Under the pieces are notes generated by a model that searched no databases, had not been told where the DNA came from, and was given only the letters and a program-made list of their open reading frames with translations. Below, piece after piece: positions 15,401 through 48,400 of a stretch of 64,000 bases of DNA. The DNA comes from Tubiluchus corallicola (Eukaryota > Priapulida > Priapulimorpha > Priapulimorphida > Tubiluchidae). The translations under genes were made by a program, and so were the position numbers. The DNA lies in NCBI GenBank assembly GCA_030141605.1, contig JAQGDQ010000046.1, positions 248,001 to 312,000 of the forward strand, read 5' to 3'. Position 1 is the stretch's first letter, and each line of letters begins with the position of its first letter.

Positions 15401-18400
15401 CTCATGGATTGACAGAGTGACAAACCAGTAATGGCTTCATTTTCATATCACCTGCTGCGTTACCGCCCAATAGCAATGTGAATCTGTTTTGTTTTTCTCT
15501 GCTTTGAAACCTGGTGCTGACCTTTCTTCCTGCAATATATAATTGCATGCTGGCATTCTTTTCCAAAAGAGTCCTGTTTGATCGACGTTAAAAATTTGTT
15601 TGCTTGAATAACCACCGTCTGTGATTATAGTCTTGAGTGTTTCTGCAAATTTCTCTGCCGCTTCATCATCTGCGCAGGCTGCTTCCCCGGTAATTTCAAT
15701 GTTTTGATAATGGTAACTTTTTTTAAACCTCTGAAACCATCCTGGACTTGCAGTAAATGTTTCTTCCTGTGAACCTTCACACTCCTTAGTTTTTATGTCA
15801 TTATATAAAGTTAAAGCCTTAGCTTGAATCATGCGCAAGCTTAGAGGCATACTACACTGACTCTGATCGACAATCCACATAGACAAAAGCTGCTCTGCTT
15901 TTTCGATTGTGGCAGGTAAAATTCAAATGAGGTGATCACAGCAATTAACCATGCAACATGAAAGAGTTTTATCAGCTGAAACACTTGCATTTTATCAAGA
16001 AGAATTTTATCTAACCGTGGGAAAGCAATGAATTATCGTGGTCTGCCTATAGCTGTAGCTGGTGTCTGCTGTCAGTTTGGTTGTGTCACGGTGATCTGGG
16101 TTAAGTGGCAGGCTTCTTGACAGAATACAAGCACAGTAAATAAGATTTTAGTGATTAAAGTAAGGCAAAAAAATGGTCGTTAAAACGAAACATGCAATGT
16201 TAAGTGAAAAAAGGTGTCAAATGATTAGCGTCATTAAAACGAAACGTCTCTCTGAGGTAGCAAGGACTTACTGTAATGTCAAACCCACGTGTGATCTAAT
16301 AGCCTTACGTTTTCCAGGGAAGTTAATGCAGACATACTAACATTAAACGTAGGCTATATGTCAATGTACATTGTACAAGAACTTGTATTTTAAAATTTAT
16401 TGAATTTATATACAATTTATGTAGAATTTTCCGATTTGCACGACAACACAATTACGTTTGAAGCAATATTTTAGCACTGACTACTTGAAAAAAATATTAG
16501 GGTGTACAAAGAATAAACTAGACATTCACTCTTCTGTGTATGCCATTATTTCATCCATCCATGAATAAATAAAAGCCATACACTAACAAACTTGTAGTAG
16601 CTAATAAATGCTTATTACTTACTTTCATAAAAACCTTTTGAACAAAAACCAGATGGTTTAGTAAATCAGTTGTCAGACTGTGTTCAAATGACCCAATCTC
16701 TGCCACAACATGTAAATAATTTCCCTCTCTAAGAACCATGCCATCCACTAAGGTTGACTGCTCGATCGTAATGCTTTCTGGTATGCGATAATCTCCACTA
16801 AAGAACATCGGTGGGAGATCGATTATGGCTGAAGTCGGCATTGAAGAATCAATGGCTGACACTGGTACCTAAAAACACAAGTAAATAAAACTACAAAACC
16901 ATATTGAAACAAGCTAGGTCTGCCTTGGTTTGTGTGTGCATGCATGTAGAGAGAGATGCAGAAAATTATAAACTCAACTCCCACTGGTGAGTGTATTCAG
17001 ATATAAAAATGTATGACTAGTAGCAAATGCACATTGTAAGTGGCTCTCAACGACTATGTACTGCTAGGTTGAGATCTCAGACTAGCTCTGCTATGCTGAA
17101 GGCAATGCTCAAATGGTATGTGCATGTGCCCAGAAAGTACAAGATCTGGATTCAGATTGTAATTGACTTCAGCTACTTGGCTATTTGGCTTATTGTTGTA
17201 AAAACGATGTCTTTCTTAATGTGCATGCTTGCGTAGTAAGTGTGAACCTAATCTACAAAATAGGCTTTTGTCTATGTGTCTGCCTATCTGGTAATTATCA
17301 CTGATGTAGGGGACTGAAACGCAATAATTTAAACTGATACCAAAAATTAAGATTAGAACATCCTTACCAAGATTTGGTATGTCTGACTGTCTGTTCAAGA
17401 TATAGTTCTGCGTGACATACAGAGCACGGAATACTATGTATAATGTCTGAGACGCGTCTTCCGTGCATGACAGACATAAATTTTTACATTAATCAAGATT
17501 GCAGAAATTACTAATGTACTAGTTACTCTTTGAAAGAGTAACCTTTAATTTATTTTAAGAGATGATAATCAACACCTCACGTACTTAACACACATTAATG
17601 TATATCAAAAGCGACAAAAGCACTATATCATTAATGCGGAAATGAACAATTTCATGTAACCTACCTTAGAATTAAACGATAACTTGTGGTTTGGTAAATT
17701 CACAACAAATTTGGCTTTGCTTCCCGTAACACCTGAACTGGTAATTTTTTCCATCTGAAATTAGAAAACTGTGATAGCAAGAAAATCCTTTAAATGAATA
17801 TGAGCAAATTAGTTGAAATAGGAAGCACAAATATTCTCTATATTATTATACCTTGTACTGTGATTTAAGCGATGGCAGTAGTGCGGCGCTAATTGCTAAA
17901 CCTTCTAATGTAATGCAGAAGCGTATCACCAATGATTTTTGAGCTTTGGCTCGCTGAGCAGACCTTGACGAAGACATTTTCTTCGTCCTGTATTTTGGAA
18001 AGTGAGTACTAGAAGACAGCACTTCCTCAGCGTGGTCCGTAGCACTGGAAACAGTGGTTACACTGGTTCTTAAAAAAATTATAATAAAAATAGTATAGAA
18101 TAATAGAAAGAATATGACAAAATGACAAAAAGCATGAAAAACATATAATAAATTGACTGTGGCACAGCTGAGCCTGAAAAATCAAAAGAAACAAATGTTT
18201 TTAATTAAAAGCAACAATAAAAATTAGAACTGAGTAGTAATTCTCAAACGACAAATGAAGCATTAATGTGCAAATCAGCAAGAAACTACTGACTTTTTAA
18301 TACGTATATAAGCATTTAAATGGTGCATAAATAAGTCATTTCATACTACATGTATATTTATTATTATCTGCAGTTATATTGTTATCTAAGACCAGAACGC

Positions 18401-24400: not shown

Positions 24401-27400
24401 CACTGATAGTCTCTTTATGTTAGATCAGTCAAATAGCAGACGTGCACAAGTTTAGTGCTTCAGAGACTCTTATAACCAAGATTAGGATTTTAACCATTTT
24501 TGTAAAGTAAAGTTAAAGTTGAAAGTTAAAGCATTTTGGCTGCTTTCAGATTCAGCAGTTACACTGTACTCTCCTGGATATCTGTCATGCACTTTCCAAG
24601 ATCATGTTATGCATGGATAGGTTATAGTATATTACGAAAGGAGGGGTGATAGGTAGGAAGCCCTTCCCACAGACTATACTACAGCAATATCTAGTTTAGC
24701 TATGTGTAAGAACCTTACAACAAGAAAAGGGAACGAGCAAGATTTGTAAATAAATGAATACACACATGCAGATAGTTATGTACTTACTTTTCCTCAATCA
24801 TTTTCATTTCTGACTTCATGGAATACAAATTTAGTAGATGGTACAAGTTCCTCCAGCATTTTGGCATGTCCGGCAGTAAGGCCTTAGTGAGAGTATCAGC
24901 TTCTGGCTTTGTTGCAATATCTATATGGTCCAATGATGCTACAGGAACTGATTCACTGAGAGACTGTGGCACACTAGAAACTCTAGCTTCCACAGACTGT
25001 GATTTTCTACGAACATGAGAAAACTGTCGAATAAACTCTCTTGCTCTGATACTGCTAAAGGATTTCTTTGTTGTGGGAGGTATCACTTCACTAACAGATA
25101 TGTCTCCACCCACTAACTCAGTCGGTGTTTCAGGAGGTTTATTGGAATCCGTCTGTGACTGCGTGTCGGTTCCAGATGTGGACGAAATACGCGGGTTAAT
25201 TGGTCCAATCACTCTGTTTTCTTTCAACTCCGTACGAGTTTCTCCTATGTTTTCTATGACATTTAATACTTGATGAAGCAAGCGTAACATTGGCATGTTT
25301 ATATACTGCATGATATGGTTGCAGTTCACATCAAAGTTCACCAACGTGGAGGTCGGCTTGCGACCAATCTCACCAGCAGACAATAAAAATCTTTTTGTCA
25401 ATTTTTCTGTTCCTTTGAGCCCAATGTCATTAAGTTCGCGTAATACAACTTGAGATACTATTCTGTCACATTCTAGAGCAGGTCGCTCTTTTTCAGTTTC
25501 CGAACGAAAACTTTTCGGAAATGTTTTCTTCGGTCGCTGACGGCGAAGCAAATCCGATTGTATAATGTGAACTCTTATTGACTCAAAAACACTAAAAATT
25601 GACACATTTGGTCCTAATTTGGCAAGCAATTTTGTTGTGACTTGCACGTCAGTAATAACTAAGCCTAAACTTTGTAAAACTGACTGGAAAATCACTTCTG
25701 GATCAGCCTGGTGAAGTTCGGCCACGTGGTCCAAATGTAAGAGATCAGCAATTTCTTCCCTGGTGCCACTGAAGTCTTGCCGTACCGTGGATGTAGGCGA
25801 AGCTTGCCCAGCTAGAAGGGGTGTTGCGTCTCGCCTTTCCTGCAAATTTTTTTCATCTTCTTGTTGTCTTACCATCCACTGATACAAATCATCTTCATCT
25901 ACTAAAGTGTCTGGTTCTGATCCTATAGCAGATGGTTTGCGACTCGCAACAAACTTCACCACGCCGGCGGCTTGATCAACGCTTACTTCACTCATTGTAC
26001 AGAAGCTGGCTTCACTTTCAACTCGTTTTAGAGTGTCGGTCGGCGGAATGGCACCAAGCTTGTCTGAAGCATCAACGTCAGTTATATGAATTGGAATGTC
26101 TGCTTTCTTTGCGCTGTCGACTGTGTCTAAATTACCGCTGCTCAGAGATTTGAACGTATTAGTGGCAAAGCTTTTCGTTGGACTTTCAAGCAACAAGTCT
26201 GGAATACAATCTGAATCACGGAGAAGCAAAGCTTTCTCTTCTTCAATATCAGAAAGAGAGCCTTGGGTCTCTTCATTACGACTGTCGCTATCGGTTCCAT
26301 ATCTCAAAATCTGCAATTAAAATTTTGCTAAGTTTGTTAAATGTTAAATGGGACCAAAATTCAGAAAACACAGAGTTTGTCTCTTAGATTACAATACTAA
26401 ATTTTGCTTTTACATTCCAAATCCTAGGAACTTGAAATCTGACAAAAAGATCAAACTCAGCAAGGTCTACCAATTTTATTACTGTGGTTGGGTGTTGCAC
26501 CAGGATAGAAATAGTAACTATTATATAGGGCTAAAAATTTTCATTAATAAAATTATTTTTTGCAGTCAAAATATTTTGTAACTAAACAATTGGCTTAGAC
26601 TACTTTATAATGTCACTTCCACTTCCTCCAAATTTGCAATAACAAAAATTTTCCTAATATAAAAATTCGAACATTTATGCGTAGTAAACAAAAAATGAAG
26701 AAAGAAAGCTGAAAATTTATGTCATCAAAATATAATATAAGTTATTGTTTGCAAAGTTCAGTTTACAAATAACCAGAGTAAAACTTGAAAATATAAACAC
26801 AAACACTAGTATCTGACAGTTAGTTACAATAAAAAATTAAAGTGAATCTACTCATTTCATTTACATTAAATGACAGATAGGCAAAAAATAGATTGTGAAC
26901 CATTAAGTAAACATAAATTATACCATTTTGCAAGTAAGCTTAATAATGATTTTTTTTAGCAACTGATCCATTAAAGGATTGTGAGAGGCACAGAGTACTT
27001 AAATTATAAACCAAATAAAGGCCTTTTAAACAAGCAACCTTGCTGATAACTGGCATGGGCAAATATAGGGAAAATGGCACAGGAAAAACTGCACAGGAAA
27101 AAATGGCAATGTAAAATGGCATGGTAAAAATGGCACAGTTAGTAAAATATATGCTTAGAGTTAGGGCTGCAGTAGAGGATAATTATTTTAATTATTTTTA
27201 CCTCTGCCGAGGAAGTTACGCTTCAACAGAGTTTGTTTGTTTGTTTGGTTGTTTTTGGCTGTTATAGGAGTAAGCCGCAAAAGCTACCTAACAGATTTCT
27301 AAGAAAGTTTGTGAACAAAGGCGGGAATAGGGTGCCAAAATGAAACTCTAATCACCTGTTCTTTTTCGCAAAATTTGAACAAACACTACGTATGGAAAAA

Positions 27401-30400
27401 AACCTTTATGATGAACTTCATGGAGGTCTCAGAGGTAGGATTTAATTAATACTTCTATTTTATTATCTCCAACTGAACAAACAACTACGAGTTACAGTAG
27501 GTGCCGCTCAATAGACTCACTTTGGGACCCAAATGTTTTGACCCAATTAACCGACTGAACCTATTAACCGATGAGTGTAGTATTACTGGTATAGAAGTAT
27601 AAGTCATCAGCTTAGTATGCATTGCAAAGGTTTTTAATGAATTTTAGAAACGAAGTAATGCCTAAATTCTTTTGTGCAGTTAAAAAATTTTAAAAAATAT
27701 TTTAAAATATTAATTTATATAAGTGAATTAGCAATAAATTAAAAAGTATACTTTTTTAAATCACACAAGTCTGTTTATTTGCAAAAAATACAAGAAAAAT
27801 CCTTCAAAGTCAGCTGCTTCATTTTTCCGCGAAGAAGTTGGCTCACAAAGTTCTCATAATTATAAAAAGGTTGAAAATCTGTTGCTGTGTGATGCACGTA
27901 TTCTCCTAAAACATTTAGCACTTGTCGTGCTTGAGCATTTTTTTGCCAAATCTTCTGCTTTCTGTCGCATTAAAGGAGCATTCACTCGAGCATCTTTGTC
28001 TCTTGTGTTTGTAAACCACACTTTTAACGCTGACTCCACTTCACAGTCTTTTCCTGTGCATCTCCTCTTAGATGCTAGATTCTCATTTTGGCTTGCTAAC
28101 TGCTCAATTTCAGATCGTTTTTTCAAAATTCTGCTGAGAGTACTTTGGGAAATTTTCAACTGCGCTACTGTACACCTGTGCCTTATCTTTGGAAGTTTAG
28201 TGTACTGCTCTAAAATTTTCAGTTTTCTTTTAGCTGTTAGATCTTTACGTTTATGCTCCATCTTTCAAACTTGTTAACTCTATACTCTTATTTGCTGTAT
28301 GATGTTTACTCTTGTCACAAGGAATGCCGACTGATTCCCGCATCTTTGTACCTGCATCTTTGACTGTTAACTGATTAAGCGCGAAAGTGTGAAATGAGAG
28401 CTTCAAAAGGAAACCGCTAAGTGATTAAATGTTTAGCTTCCAGAAATTCTTGGGTAATGTTCAAAGAAAAACCACTATGCTAGCGTATTAGCGCATGATA
28501 AATGTACCTGCTTACAAACAAAATGGTACTTAAGATGATTGTTTCTACCAATATTATAGTGTACAAAAGTGAAGTAAAGATGACATAAGTAGGAAAGGCT
28601 CTTTGGGTATGTACAAATTACTTATTATAAATATGTTAAGGAAAGATATTAAGTCAATTATGCGTAGAAATTCGAGTCAATTACCGACAGTTTTTATGTA
28701 CATTTGCATAGAAGCGTACCAGGCGTTTTTGAGTCAATTAAGCGTTTGAGTCTATTAACCGTGAGTCTACTAAGCGGTGCCTACTGTAGTTCCAGTTCCA
28801 TTTCGAGAAATTCGCACTTGTAATTAAGGTGCATAGCTTTATAAGGTGATTTGGTATGTAAATACATATACATTATATGTAATATAAATCTATTACCATT
28901 GCCAAAATTAGTGGCTAAAAAGGTAGATAAACACTATGTGGAACATTTGTGTATTATTAATTATAAATCTATTTATTGAACAAATTTTTTTGTGAGTCTT
29001 TTACTACTTTATATAATACTAATACAGTTACATTTTTGTACGTTTGCTTGCTTATCTTTGTGTTAAATATTTTTAACCAAACGAATCAGATGAATAAATT
29101 TAGGATTGTTCAGCTTTGACAGAGATCTGTTTCCTACTGAGGGCATTATAGTTTTATTACAGAAATCAGTTGCATCAAAATAACATATGTGCCATTTTTT
29201 CCTGTGCCATTTTTACCTACTTTTTCATTTGTGCCATTTTTCCCGCACCAACTTTACCTGTTCCATTTTCTCCTGTGCCATTTTACCATGCAATTTTTTC
29301 CTGTGTCATTTTCATCTACTTTTCCACGTGTGTCATTTTTACACTGCACCGGAGTGAGTTTATTCTACAGTGTCTAACGACTCTTTAGCAAATCTCATAC
29401 AATGTGAATAACTGTTCCACTTAGTTTCAAGTCTAATTTTTGCCTTAGAAATACAATCAAAATATCCAGAAGAAGTGCAGCAAAATCCTTGCTTAATGAC
29501 TCCATTTAGCAATATTTTCTTTTAAAGACTCTGAACTGTGACAGCTTTTTCTACTTTAACAATCCATGTCATTTTAACGACAATTTTTGACCAAACATTA
29601 AGCATATAAATTTTGTTTGCACTCAACAAAAAAGCCAACTGCTAACTGCTATATCACTACAATAATTTTCCCTAGTACTGATTCTGTTAGCAGGCAGTCA
29701 AACACAGACTCCGGCCTGGCATACTGTAATGATGCATTGCTGTCACTTTCCTAGAGAGATAATAATTCTCCTGCTAAAATGTTCTCATATTATTCGTACA
29801 TACAGAATTGTAGGGTTAATTGACTGCATTTACCTCATTTGTATTCACATTTTTGCTGAAGCAATAAATTGCTGGAAAAAAGCAAACTATTTGGAATACC
29901 AAATGCTGCAATTAGTAAAAGATAATGTATGCATTTAAAAAAATGACCTTCAAACAGTGTTTGAATCGTTGATTTTTGTCCTTGGAGTGCAATAGAAAGC
30001 TTTTACATTATTTTCTATAGAAGCCTTGTTTCATATTGTTTCATTTAACAATGCATTTTGCTGTAATATTAACTTCGTTAAACATGGACTTATTGAAGCT
30101 GCACCACGTAAACTAGGTAAGAAATTGTATAACTACACACCCTGGCTGCACCATACTGTGGATGTATTCCTTTTTGCTGCAAAGGCAAATTCATTTGGAG
30201 CAAAACCGGCATGTACACAAGTCGCTTCCATTGTCTTGTAAGAGCCATCAAACCTGCAATTAAACAATGTGTATAGTCACAGTCTTGCACTACACGAAAC
30301 AGAATAAATATCAAAGGTGATTTACTTTTATTTGTTACACCCACGATTGGACTTAGAAATCATGAGGCCCTACTGAAAACAACTATCGTTTCACAGCTAA

Positions 30401-42400: not shown

Positions 42401-45400
42401 AACATGGAAGAAATTACCCGTAAATTCAATGCAGATGAGCTTTCAACAAAGTACAGCTCCACGGAATCAATGGCAATCCGAGACATTCTGTATTTGATAT
42501 CTTCAGCAGTTGGACAGGGAATGTTAGGACTAATTGTTGTCTTCTTGCATAAGGACTGCTGTTCCATGTGCTGACACAATCTGCCTTGACCGGGATGGAC
42601 TAGACAATTCTCCTTATCCATTACGAGAAACACAAATGTCTCCAACGCTGTTACAATACTAGAAAGCTAGAACAGAAATTGTGTTTCAACTCTTGTCAGC
42701 CATGAGAATGCGTTATAATCTTACAAATATGATATGTTGCAAACATATCATACAATTATAAAGACGTCAAAACAAATAAAAAAGACAGTTAACATGTTAT
42801 GACAATAGCAAAAAATAATCTTCTTGCCTGGCTAGGAAAATCACACTTTAGATTTACTTATAGATAAAACATAAAAAGAATTTTGAAACATTTTTTGTCC
42901 TCGTTTTTAGGATGTAGTTAGTTTTTTAGATTTTGCGATAAATTTATGACCAAATTTGAAATTTCTGACCTCTAGTGTTTGAGACTAAACAAGCTGTGTG
43001 AAATAAAATGTCCCAAGTTTTTTTGTGAAAAAAGTTTGACGTTTTGACAGATTAGTTAGTGTAGCAGACACTCTTAAACACTGCATTAAAACACACATAA
43101 CAGTGATGTTTTGGTAAATTTAGTGAAACAAAAAGTTCATTTTTGTGATTATTTCTTGTTAACCAACATTCGTTGCACATAACTGCACATCGCTGAACAC
43201 AATAAACTAAAACAGATATTAACCTAATGTTTTAGCAATACTATACAATGTTTAACAACACTAACTAGCTTGCTAAGTTTAAAAACCAAAAAATGTGTCT
43301 AACCTGAGGCGCTGTAATTCTACCAATGATATCTCCAAGCTGAGCTTCAACAAGCCAAGCATATTCTAATGTCTCACTATCCAAACTTAAACCTTCAGCT
43401 GAGAACATGGCATGGCCTCGGATTTGTAAACCAGATAGCTGTAGATGTCCCTGAGACAAATGTTCTTGGGATTTCTTTCTCTGAAAATTGTTATTCATGT
43501 GCAAAAGTCACTGCTTTTATTTCTGTACTGAAAATAATGGTGTTTATATTCTAACATCAGAAAGATATGCAAAACAGAAGTTAACTCATTTGAAAAAGCT
43601 CATTGAAATGTAGCGATAGACCTTGAATCAACGCTTACTCTTAGGAAAAAACAGCCATTAGAACAACTTATGGTGAAAAACAAGATCGTCAAAAAAAACT
43701 TCAAACTACATGCATGTTTAACATTAAATAAAATGCAAAAACTTAATAATATAAATAACAGCACTCTCTTACACAATTTAGCCAAGTGCATCATCTCACA
43801 ATCTAGATTATTATCTATTAAAGGAAAACTGGATGACTGTGTAAACAGGAGTTCAGAATAAAGAATGCTTTAAAACATTGAAAACTACAATAGCTTATTT
43901 CAAATCAAAGCTTAGATTAAATAATAATTACCTCGGATACTCAAATTTTGTTAAACTTTCAAAGCTACGCGTGGCTCAGTGAATCTACTAAGATTGGCAG
44001 CGGCGCCTTTTTGTCACGTGCGTGGCGCCGATAAATAGAAGCCGGTACCGTGATAACCATGATCATGAACTGCTGTGTTAGTTTCATGACATCATATGAC
44101 GTAGACCCCATTTTTCATGACATCGTGCATTTAAACAGTACTGTAACACCTATGCAAATGTGATTGACGTGCAAGGGAAGATGCTTGCCATTGCACAAAC
44201 TGTGATTAGTTTCTGACGTAAGCAATAGCCGTGTTCGGTTGCCATTAATTAACTTTCTAAGCTAATTATTCAAATATAAGGAACAATTCTTAACTTTTAT
44301 ATTCAAGAAAATGTATATTTTGGACACTGAATTAAAATGAGATCGAGTCTAAACAATCGTCCGGTCTTCCTTTAATATACCTACTCTCTTAACGTACGTA
44401 AAGTAGGTTCTAAATTGAGCATATCAAACGGTGGTCATTATACACCAGATTTATCTAGCTCAATTCGACTATAAGTAATTATGTAACCGGAATGCGTAAC
44501 TTTTGGATTATACTGAAAGGATGATGCTCCACAGATATAAACTATTGATATTTATCTGACACTGCTGCTACAGCTTTTTTCATTATAAAATTTATGATTG
44601 CCAAGCATTCAATTTAACTGAATAAGCCTTGATTACAAGTATGAAGATTCGAAGACATAACCTTATAAAAATGTATGCTTTAAGTAGGCATAAACTGGAT
44701 AGAACTGCATAGGTTTGCAGTCTGTTAAAAATCAATAAACAAAAAAATAATGCTCACTTCTATATTGTCAGATACAGAAAGAGTTATTGGTGATATCAAA
44801 ACTTGCAACTGAGTTTCACGATAGCCCTTCACCAGCTCAAAACCAATCCTCTCAATAAACACATTGGGGCAGGGTGGATCACCTTCATTACAGTGCTGAA
44901 ATATAGAAGTTAAATGTATCTAAACCATGTATTTTTACTGCAAAAACTAACAACATAAAAGGCAATTGTTATGACCAGAGATCGCAATGAAAAATCAATG
45001 CACATTATTACTTATAAATGTTATCTCTTGTTTTTTTGTCTATACAATAAAACAAAAGAACGTGCAAAGTTGACCTTCTTCAGTTCTTAGACAAATAATG
45101 CAGTCAAGATATTTTGGCTTTGAATGTACTATTCGACACAACAAATGTCAAGGGCCCACATTCTTTCAAAATCTGCACATACGTACACATTTCATTTGGT
45201 ATAGAAATTCACAGTTTGCATAATTTCAAACATGAAAATGCAATTACAGGTAAATAAAATACAGACTTTTACCAAAAGCAAGACAGTTCAGCCATAATAA
45301 ATGAATATATTATTCTAATATCAAATTCGTCAAAATATACCTTACAACAAAAGAGGTAATAAGGTATATTAGAAGGTATTTTAGAAACGTATGCAGACTG

Positions 45401-48400
45401 TTAACCACTGAGGCTATACATATATAAAAATAATTATTGTAAAATAAATATTAATTATAAAAACAAATAATAATATACAGATAAATAAAGACAGACCTTT
45501 TGCCAAAAACAAGACAGTTCAGTCATAACAAATGAACATATTATTCTAATATCAAATTTGTCAAAATATACCTTACAACAAAAGAGGTATTAACGTATAT
45601 TAGAATGTACTTTAGAAACTTATGCAAACTGTTAACTATCGAGGCTATACATATACAAAAATATTTATTATACATGGTGGCTATAAGTGATGAAATTTCA
45701 AATGCCCTATCATAGTAATGTGCACCAGATTCCTAATGCACATTTACTGTGAAACGATTGAAATTTATAATAATTAACTCGAAGAAATCTCAAATTAAAC
45801 TTTCAAAATTTGATATAAACATTAGTTACAAGAAAAACATACCTAACTTTTACAAGGCTGTAATAAAGACTAAAAACTATGAAAAGTTTAAAATTTCTAG
45901 AATCAATAAAAACTAACTATAGACTAGTATACCTTCATTAGATGCGCGTGTATTTCATGTGCTGTTAGCGAAACTTTTACAGCTAGGGGACGATACATTC
46001 TGGGATCAAACACGTTTTCTTCACCTTTTTCAATTTCATCATGTAGATCTTCAGTACCAAGACTGCTTGACATGTCAAATATCATTTGATCTTCTCCTAA
46101 GTAGTTTTCCTATTGAGCAAAATTCAGAGTAAGATGAAAAAATATCAGTTTATAGTAGAAAATAATTATGTTACATACGAATAATATGGCATTCGTGATG
46201 CTATTATTAGCAGTGTCGTAATTCATCAAAAATCCAGAGATACTTTTGCCAAATTAACTCTTAAAGACAATCTCGAATGTGTTGTATCAGACAGATCTTT
46301 ATTAAGTAAAACAATAGGCTTTGTGTTACCTTCAAATGTAGTACTAGTCTGATTACTGAACCAAACAGTTTCAGTACAGCTGGGCCAAGTTCGCATTCTA
46401 CATTGATAGTATCGGGTTGCAGTGTCGTCGGGTCAAATTCACTTGCATTGGGAAATTTTTGCTCCTTTCGTTTCCTTTCTGGAGTACCTTCAGGACGAAT
46501 TGATGATAGTAAGGCTTCCTCTTGCTCGGGTGTGGCTAGATTTACTTCCCTATATAACATAAATTAACAAATATATAATTAAACTGCACTGTTCAGATGT
46601 TTGAAGATTAGCTTCCCGTTGTTAAACCACAGGAAGGACAAACATGTTTTCTGTGTTGTAGTTAGTTAATTACCATTGATACTAGTTTTATAGCCAAAAA
46701 CATTTTCCAAAATGTTACATTTTGCATATACAGTAGGCACCACTTAATAGACTCACTTTGGGACCGATGTGTTTTGACCCAATTAACCGAGTGAACCCAT
46801 TAACCGATGGGTGTAGTATTACAGCTATAGAAGTATGAGTTACCAATTTACTATGCACTGCAAAGGCTTTTAACGAATTTTAGAAACGAAGTAATGCCTA
46901 AATTCCTTTGTGCAGTTAAAAATTAGAAAACATATTTTAAAATATTAATTTATATGAGTGAAGCAGCAATAAATTAAAAGTATACTTTTCTAAATCACAG
47001 ATTTTTCTAAGTCTGTTTATTTGCAAAAATTATAAAAATTCTTTCAAAGTCGGCTACTTCATTTTCTTGCGAAGAAGTTATTAGCCGTGTGATGTTCACT
47101 CTTGTAAGTCACAAGGAATACCGGCTGTTTACTGTACTTTCATCTTCGACTGTTAACTCATTAAGCCTAAAAGTATGATTTGCAACGAGAGCATCAAAAG
47201 GAAACTGCTAGACAAGTGATTAAATGTTCAGCTTCCAGAATTCTTAGGGTAACAGTGGACGAACGGGTAACAGATTCAAAGCAAAACCGCTATGCTAGCG
47301 TATTAGTGCATGATAAATGTACCTGCTTATAAACAAAACGATATGTAACATATTGTTTCTGCATACATAGTGCACAAAAGTGAAGTAAAGATGACATAAA
47401 AGCAGGAAAGGCTCTTTTGGCACATACAAATATCTTATTTTAAGTATGTGAAGGAAAAATATTGAGTCAATTATGCAGAGTTATTTGAGTCAATTACCGA
47501 TAGTTTTTATGTATATTTGAATAGAAGCGGCCCATTGCAGGCATTTTTGAGTCAATTAGGCGATTGAGTCTATTAAGCGGCGCTTACTGTAATATAGTTT
47601 GCATTGTATCTTTTTCATATTATTACAAGTACTTACTGAGTCTTTAGTGTGTTTGGTGGTATAGGCCAATATGTATACGTAATACTGAGTGCTAAGATAG
47701 GAGCATAAACAATGTCTACCCAACCATCTGCTGGTAAGACATGATTACGCCATAGCTTTTCTTTTGCTGTAGTATCCATAATAGATCCATCACGATTAGT
47801 TAATTTGGCATGCCGATCCAGTGCCAGTACAATGTCTCGACTGGTATAACACTCTGGCAAGTACAAGCAAGCTGTCAAGTTTTCGCCCTAAGAAGATGAA
47901 AAAAATCAGAACTTGAGATTTACACAGTTTTAATAGCTTACATGTTGTCATATAATATTTTCATTACAATGGCACTAATACACTACAAAATAACTACAGA
48001 GGGTGTTAGGTGATAGACATTTTTCCCTTGCTGACAGGTTAATTACCAAGTTCACAAATTTCCACACTGCAAGGTTAAATTTTATCTTACAAGTTACAGA
48101 AATTTCTACCTGTCACCAGGCTTGCACAGTGTTTTATGGAATGTATACAAAAACTGCAGAATTAAAACTAAAACTAGAACGGCAGCACTAAGATGTTTGG
48201 ATCAGGCATGTCCCACTTGCTCATTTTTTGTAAAGTTAATTGTTTCCATCAGAAAATGTTGGGAAGCATCAATCACTGTCATGAATCTATTTTTCATAAA
48301 GTTTAGAATACCCATTATTTGCACAGATCCATTTGTACATTAGAATGATAAAAAACACAACAATATAACGATGTATAGGGCTGATTAATTTAACACGCAT

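Follow-up and report, generated by a model that had tools for sequence, protein, structure and literature searches.

A 2,290-bp element at 27061–29350 (+ strand) of a 64-kb stretch of Tubiluchus corallicola DNA (hereafter the window) is most probably an old member of a foldback family of cut-and-paste DNA transposons that are non-autonomous and present in high copy number. The family would be mobilized in trans by a Mutator-type (MULE) transposase, and a pogo/Tigger-like element later entered the window copy. The repeat anatomy, the termini, the 9-bp target-site duplications (TSDs), the dispersal and copy number, the non-coding nature of the copies, their variable arm lengths and the later pogo insertion can be read directly from the window and from the 343.5-Mb genome assembly that was searched.

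Structure of the element in the window

The ends of the element were placed by a terminus scan anchored on the family end consensus. Its left tip, AAATATAGG (27061–27069, + strand), is of the A type (family consensus GAATGTAGG) and is followed by a left arm of five tandem units (27071–27137, − strand) that reads AAAATGGCACAGGAA on the + strand. The right arm comprises seven tandem units, CCTGTGCCATTTTT (29188–29339, + strand), and leads into a right tip of the B type, TACACTGCACC (29340–29350, − strand; family consensus TACCGCGCACC). The left-array units read AAAATGGCACAGG(AA) in reverse orientation and the right array carries the reverse-complement unit in forward orientation, in agreement with the first-pass annotation, which had described inverted arrays of one short unit. 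Among 20 random sequences generated to match the first-order composition, the count peaked at 3 unit matches per 160-bp stretch. The exact tandem pattern GTGCCATTTTGTGCCATTTT found no match because the units are spaced by CCT/ACC. Between the arms lies a non-coding core, of which the left half (27138–27492, + strand; identified by the consensus of 41 cores) contains a ACCTCTGCCRAGGAAGTTA... motif and is separated by the insertion from the right half (28789–29187, + strand). The candidate TSDs directly outside the tips, GGCATGGGC (27052–27060) and GGAGTGAGT (29351–29359), agree at 5/9 positions, a weak match. The true termini lie 5–11 bp away from the earlier bounds of 27050 and 29345.

The insertion is a 1,292-bp element (27495–28786) with inverted termini CAGTAGGTGCCGCTCAATAGACTCAC / CAGTAGGCACCGCTTAGTAGACTCAC, flanked on the left (27493–27494) and right (28787–28788) by copies of a TA target-site duplication, so that the complete terminal-inverted-repeat element anticipated between the arrays is indeed present. 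It resembles pogo/Tigger transposons in its TA target duplication, in its CAGTAGG inverted ends, and in a 133-aa open reading frame (27860–28261, − strand) with a Tc5-type HTH DNA-binding domain (Pfam PF03221), and on its duplication and inverted ends it belongs with them. It differs from them in that only this DNA-binding fragment is left; no catalytic domain was found in the 133-aa frame, and the insertion is therefore itself non-autonomous. In the family consensus, the insertion site contains a single TA (...CTACGAGTTAGTTCCAG...), showing that the pogo-free state is seen in other copies. Removal of the insertion and one TA leaves 996 bp, which matches the predicted remainder of about 1 kb and is inside the size range of other copies.

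Several further features were observed in the window. A second frame with a Tc5-type HTH domain (15443–15886, − strand; PF03221, E 6e-11) is assigned to another pogo/Tigger-like element, which is longer than the first, and short TTGAGTCAATTA... repeats at 47462–47579 resemble those by the pogo end at 28728–28773, suggesting another pogo-family copy. A 510-aa open frame (24784–26316, − strand), ~750 bp away from the foldback element, matches the middle region of BLTP1 and is read as an exon encoding part of a BLTP1-like protein; this exon and the transposon content are in keeping with an animal genome. A tandem 231-bp unit is present in 1.8 repeats (89% match) at 45245–45669.

Copy number and target-site duplications

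Genome searches with the two outer parts of the element yielded 1,022 and 722 first-look candidates, and a search with the core consensus yielded 1,102; these are rough figures, the best 40 having been scored per search. The family probably numbers hundreds of copies. Loci L052-L057, as well as L068 and L085, lie on different contigs, and comparison of 400 bp of flank per side gave 100% identity. Redundant or haplotype contigs are probably present in the assembly and would inflate copy counts.

When different duplication lengths and offsets were scanned, the one register that was prominent with these tips was that of 9 bp (46% identity, k=9, offsets 0,0). The mean match over 25 copies was 4.64 of the 9 positions, as compared to 2.51 in shuffles, and 7/25 copies matched at 7 or more positions, as compared to a mean of 0.36 and a maximum of 4 in 5,000 shuffles. 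Three copies have perfect 9/9 duplications: L026 (ATTCTAATC), L071 (ATTGATACA), and L073 (GTTCATTGC). These statistics, together with the three perfect copies, identify a dispersed mobile family with TSDs, as expected for FB-like foldback elements. The earlier proposal to look just outside the ends was borne out for the family as a whole, which has 9-bp TSDs, and less so for the window copy, for which the duplication is weak and no empty site was found; its 5/9 match may be compatible with old age. Searches for empty sites of two copies, the window copy and L073, matched only the occupied site, and comparison of flanks against loci returned duplicated contigs and no empty site.

Termini and their possible polarity

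Copies end in one of two 7-bp sequences, GAATGTA (A) or GGTGCGC (B), which lie outside the repeat and are followed by a shared GGTAAAAATGGCAC. Allowing up to 1 mismatch, the A end sequence was found 226 times and the B end sequence 124 times, and the reversed controls 0 and 1 times. Where both tips could be called by an outermost-unit rule, A stood at the core start and B at the core end in 22 copies, with the B/A arrangement in 2 and A/A in 2.

In L074, L080, L084, L086, L087, and L091, the core points the other way with respect to the A tip, and most of these cluster in the core tree, for which support values are rough and the root is a midpoint root only. Of the 7 sequences labelled as reversed in this tree (A tip on the opposite core side), 5 group at its base together with the nearby L074. 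This placement suggests that the reversed-core copies may be a diverged sister group whose core is reversed between its tips, and not the products of repeated flipping.

The ends of the family could have a true polarity. Tentatively, and with more doubt than confidence, it can be proposed that the transposase acts only on an A tip together with a B tip, that the array behind each tip supplies decoy or enhancer sites, and that copies with two A tips are immobile recombination products. If so, the two ends of this cut-and-paste animal transposon would not be equivalent.

Which transposase

A MULE transposase is the best guess for the mobilizing enzyme based on the TSD length and the match to the anatomy of the Tm1 element described below. 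MULE TSDs are 8–11 bp long, typically 9 bp (PMC6446971), and the family, at 9 bp, agrees with this. The genome contains 43 matches to the MULE domain PF10551, and among those checked, none is linked to A/B ends. Only one of them, on contig C2289, was found near a suitably oriented end, and it adjoins an ordinary copy in which the core directly follows the tip. Long A/B or B/B end pairs were considered as autonomous candidates and rejected; on C1874 (8.3-kb pair, left end checked) and C2289 the core comes directly after the tip, as in ordinary copies. None of the candidates tested put a transposase gene inside a pair of A and B ends. A genome search for FLYWCH domains, run without a positive control, found none.

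Foldback structure arises independently in several superfamilies, and Galileo combines foldback arms with a P-type transposase (PMC3573991; PMC3688188), so a non-MULE enzyme, whether P-type as in Galileo, Merlin, hAT or another, has to be weighed. The genome does contain such domains, with 9 matches to a Merlin-type DDE domain and a single, decayed P-element-like match. The Merlin domain closest to an A end lies 1.3 kb inside the tip (C158, L065), but it belongs to a separate nested transposon with inverted ends of its own (CTCTATTAGAATTCAGG / CTCTATTAGAATCCAGG), after which the foldback core resumes. This Merlin-like (IS1595-type) transposon, with its CTCTATTAGAATTCAGG ends, was observed in L065 / L093 (C158:136516-140736). 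An IS1595-type transposase inside the same ends as the foldback family, which would place it in the Merlin superfamily, was thus not observed. With the 9-bp register being typical of MULEs, mobilization by a non-MULE transposase is unlikely.

Core and arms

Two samples of loci bear on whether the arms and the core form one unit. Of 60 loci retrieved by homology, most carry a reverse array on the left and a forward array on the right of a core that measures roughly 500–880 bp. A second sample, independent of core homology, was picked by the exact terminal sequence of the A tip, and in 25/30 of these loci the core lies inside the tip, and in 21/30 a forward array follows within the next 1.5 kb. 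The foldback architecture inferred from the window alone is therefore a property of the family, and the finding that was to count against it, arrays that are dispersed and never paired in inverted orientation, is the opposite of what the genome search returned. Built from 41 copies, the 805-bp core consensus is interrupted by stops in every one of the six frames and contains no recognizable coding content, consistent with the first-pass view of a core without a recognized protein. Mean identity of the copies to it is 90%, which puts the family at a divergence of about 10%.

The core could be a separate mobile repeat to which the arrays were added secondarily, yielding a composite element. Consistent with this notion, it has a short inverted motif of its own near its edges (ACCTCTGCC... 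/ ...GGCAGAGAT), and arrays-only copies exist, such as L073, which is 253 bp long with its perfect 9-bp duplication. Repeats of the form ACCTCYGCC...GTTTGTTTG in other animals may be similar to the core; this motif had no match in viral and prokaryote collections. A composite origin is nevertheless improbable, since the core accompanies array and tip in the 25/30 tip-selected loci, core-selected loci nearly all bear arrays, and no array-less core is prominent among the best 40 scored matches.

The arms are inverted terminal arrays of short tandem units of variable length, as in FB-like foldback elements. Across 872 unit spacings, distances are mostly 14–15 bp and 26–29 bp, and arms range from 2–3 units to 75 or more (L018). 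In L018, L016, L003, and L030, one arm has grown to 45–75 or more units and reaches as much as ~1.5 kb, which makes it look like the seed of a satellite; of these loci, L018 is close to the end of a contig. Although such satellite-like variation in length is what mini-satellites grown at separate sites would display, their inverted pairing then being coincidental or due to local inversion, this explanation can be dismissed as highly improbable given the inverted pair and the same core in most of ~90 loci, the conserved outer tips, and the 9-bp duplications.

Relation to known foldback elements

The closest described counterpart is Tm1 of root-knot nematodes (Meloidogyne; PMC3169594), a Mutator/Foldback element with a Phantom-type MULE transposase, 9-bp TSDs, arms of ~14-bp tandem units, and 7-bp tips that are asymmetric and adjoin a shared 3-bp motif. 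The Tubiluchus family likewise has two different 7-bp tips that lie outside the inverted repeat and adjoin a 3-bp shared motif, as well as tandem 13–15 bp units, variable arm length, 9-bp TSDs, mostly non-coding copies, and occasional same-tip copies without a TSD (here L057, A/A, 1/9). Unlike Tm1, it shows no similarity to the Tm1 tips (CGGTTAA, CCTACCC) or unit (CGATTCAGTATCCGC), its copy number is much higher, no transposase-coding copy was found among the candidates tested, and the histone hairpin is absent, an Rfam search of the window copy having returned only chance-level matches, none significant. With consensus tips and unit that differ from those of Tm1, the family falls outside Tm1 proper.

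Long inverted arms of short tandem units are likewise shared with FB of Drosophila (with NOF) and with TU of sea urchin, from which the family would differ in its unit sequence and core. FB elements have 9-bp TSDs, and their tips are not known to be asymmetric. Tetris of Drosophila virilis is also a non-autonomous foldback element with 8–10 bp TSDs and satellite-like expansion of its arm repeats, but its arms, which reach 1,735 bp and contain 220-bp repeats, are longer, and organism and sequence are different (PMC4079207). Galileo of Drosophila resembles the family in its foldback-like arms with tandem repeats and differs in that its transposase is of the P superfamily. The architecture is already described in Tm1, FB, TU, Tetris, and Galileo, and the copies found here represent a probably new family within a known type and not a new kind of element.

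Proposed mechanism and implications

Each copy has a 7-bp tip, usually A on one side and B on the other, followed by GGTAAAAATGGCAC, a variable number of 14–15 bp inverted units, and a core of ~0.75 kb. A Mutator-type transposase supplied in trans may bind the repeated units, which could be extra copies of the terminal GGTAAAAATGGCAC site. That tandem units in arms can be binding sites is known from Galileo, in which biochemical experiments showed a transposase domain binding the arm repeats (PMC3688188). The transposase would pair one A and one B end and insert the element with a 9-bp stagger, and arms may lengthen and shorten through unequal exchange or slippage. The family would then have aged to ~10% divergence from its consensus, and the pogo/Tigger-like element entered the core of the window copy.

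The layout of tips and arrays, shared with Tm1 without shared sequence, may represent a functional requirement of the transposase. Mutator/Foldback elements with asymmetric 7-bp tips are few, and the Tubiluchus family, which appears to be high in copy number, joins them. Its arm sizes, from 2 to 75 or more units, make it a convenient case of tandem repeats being seeded by the arms of a transposon.
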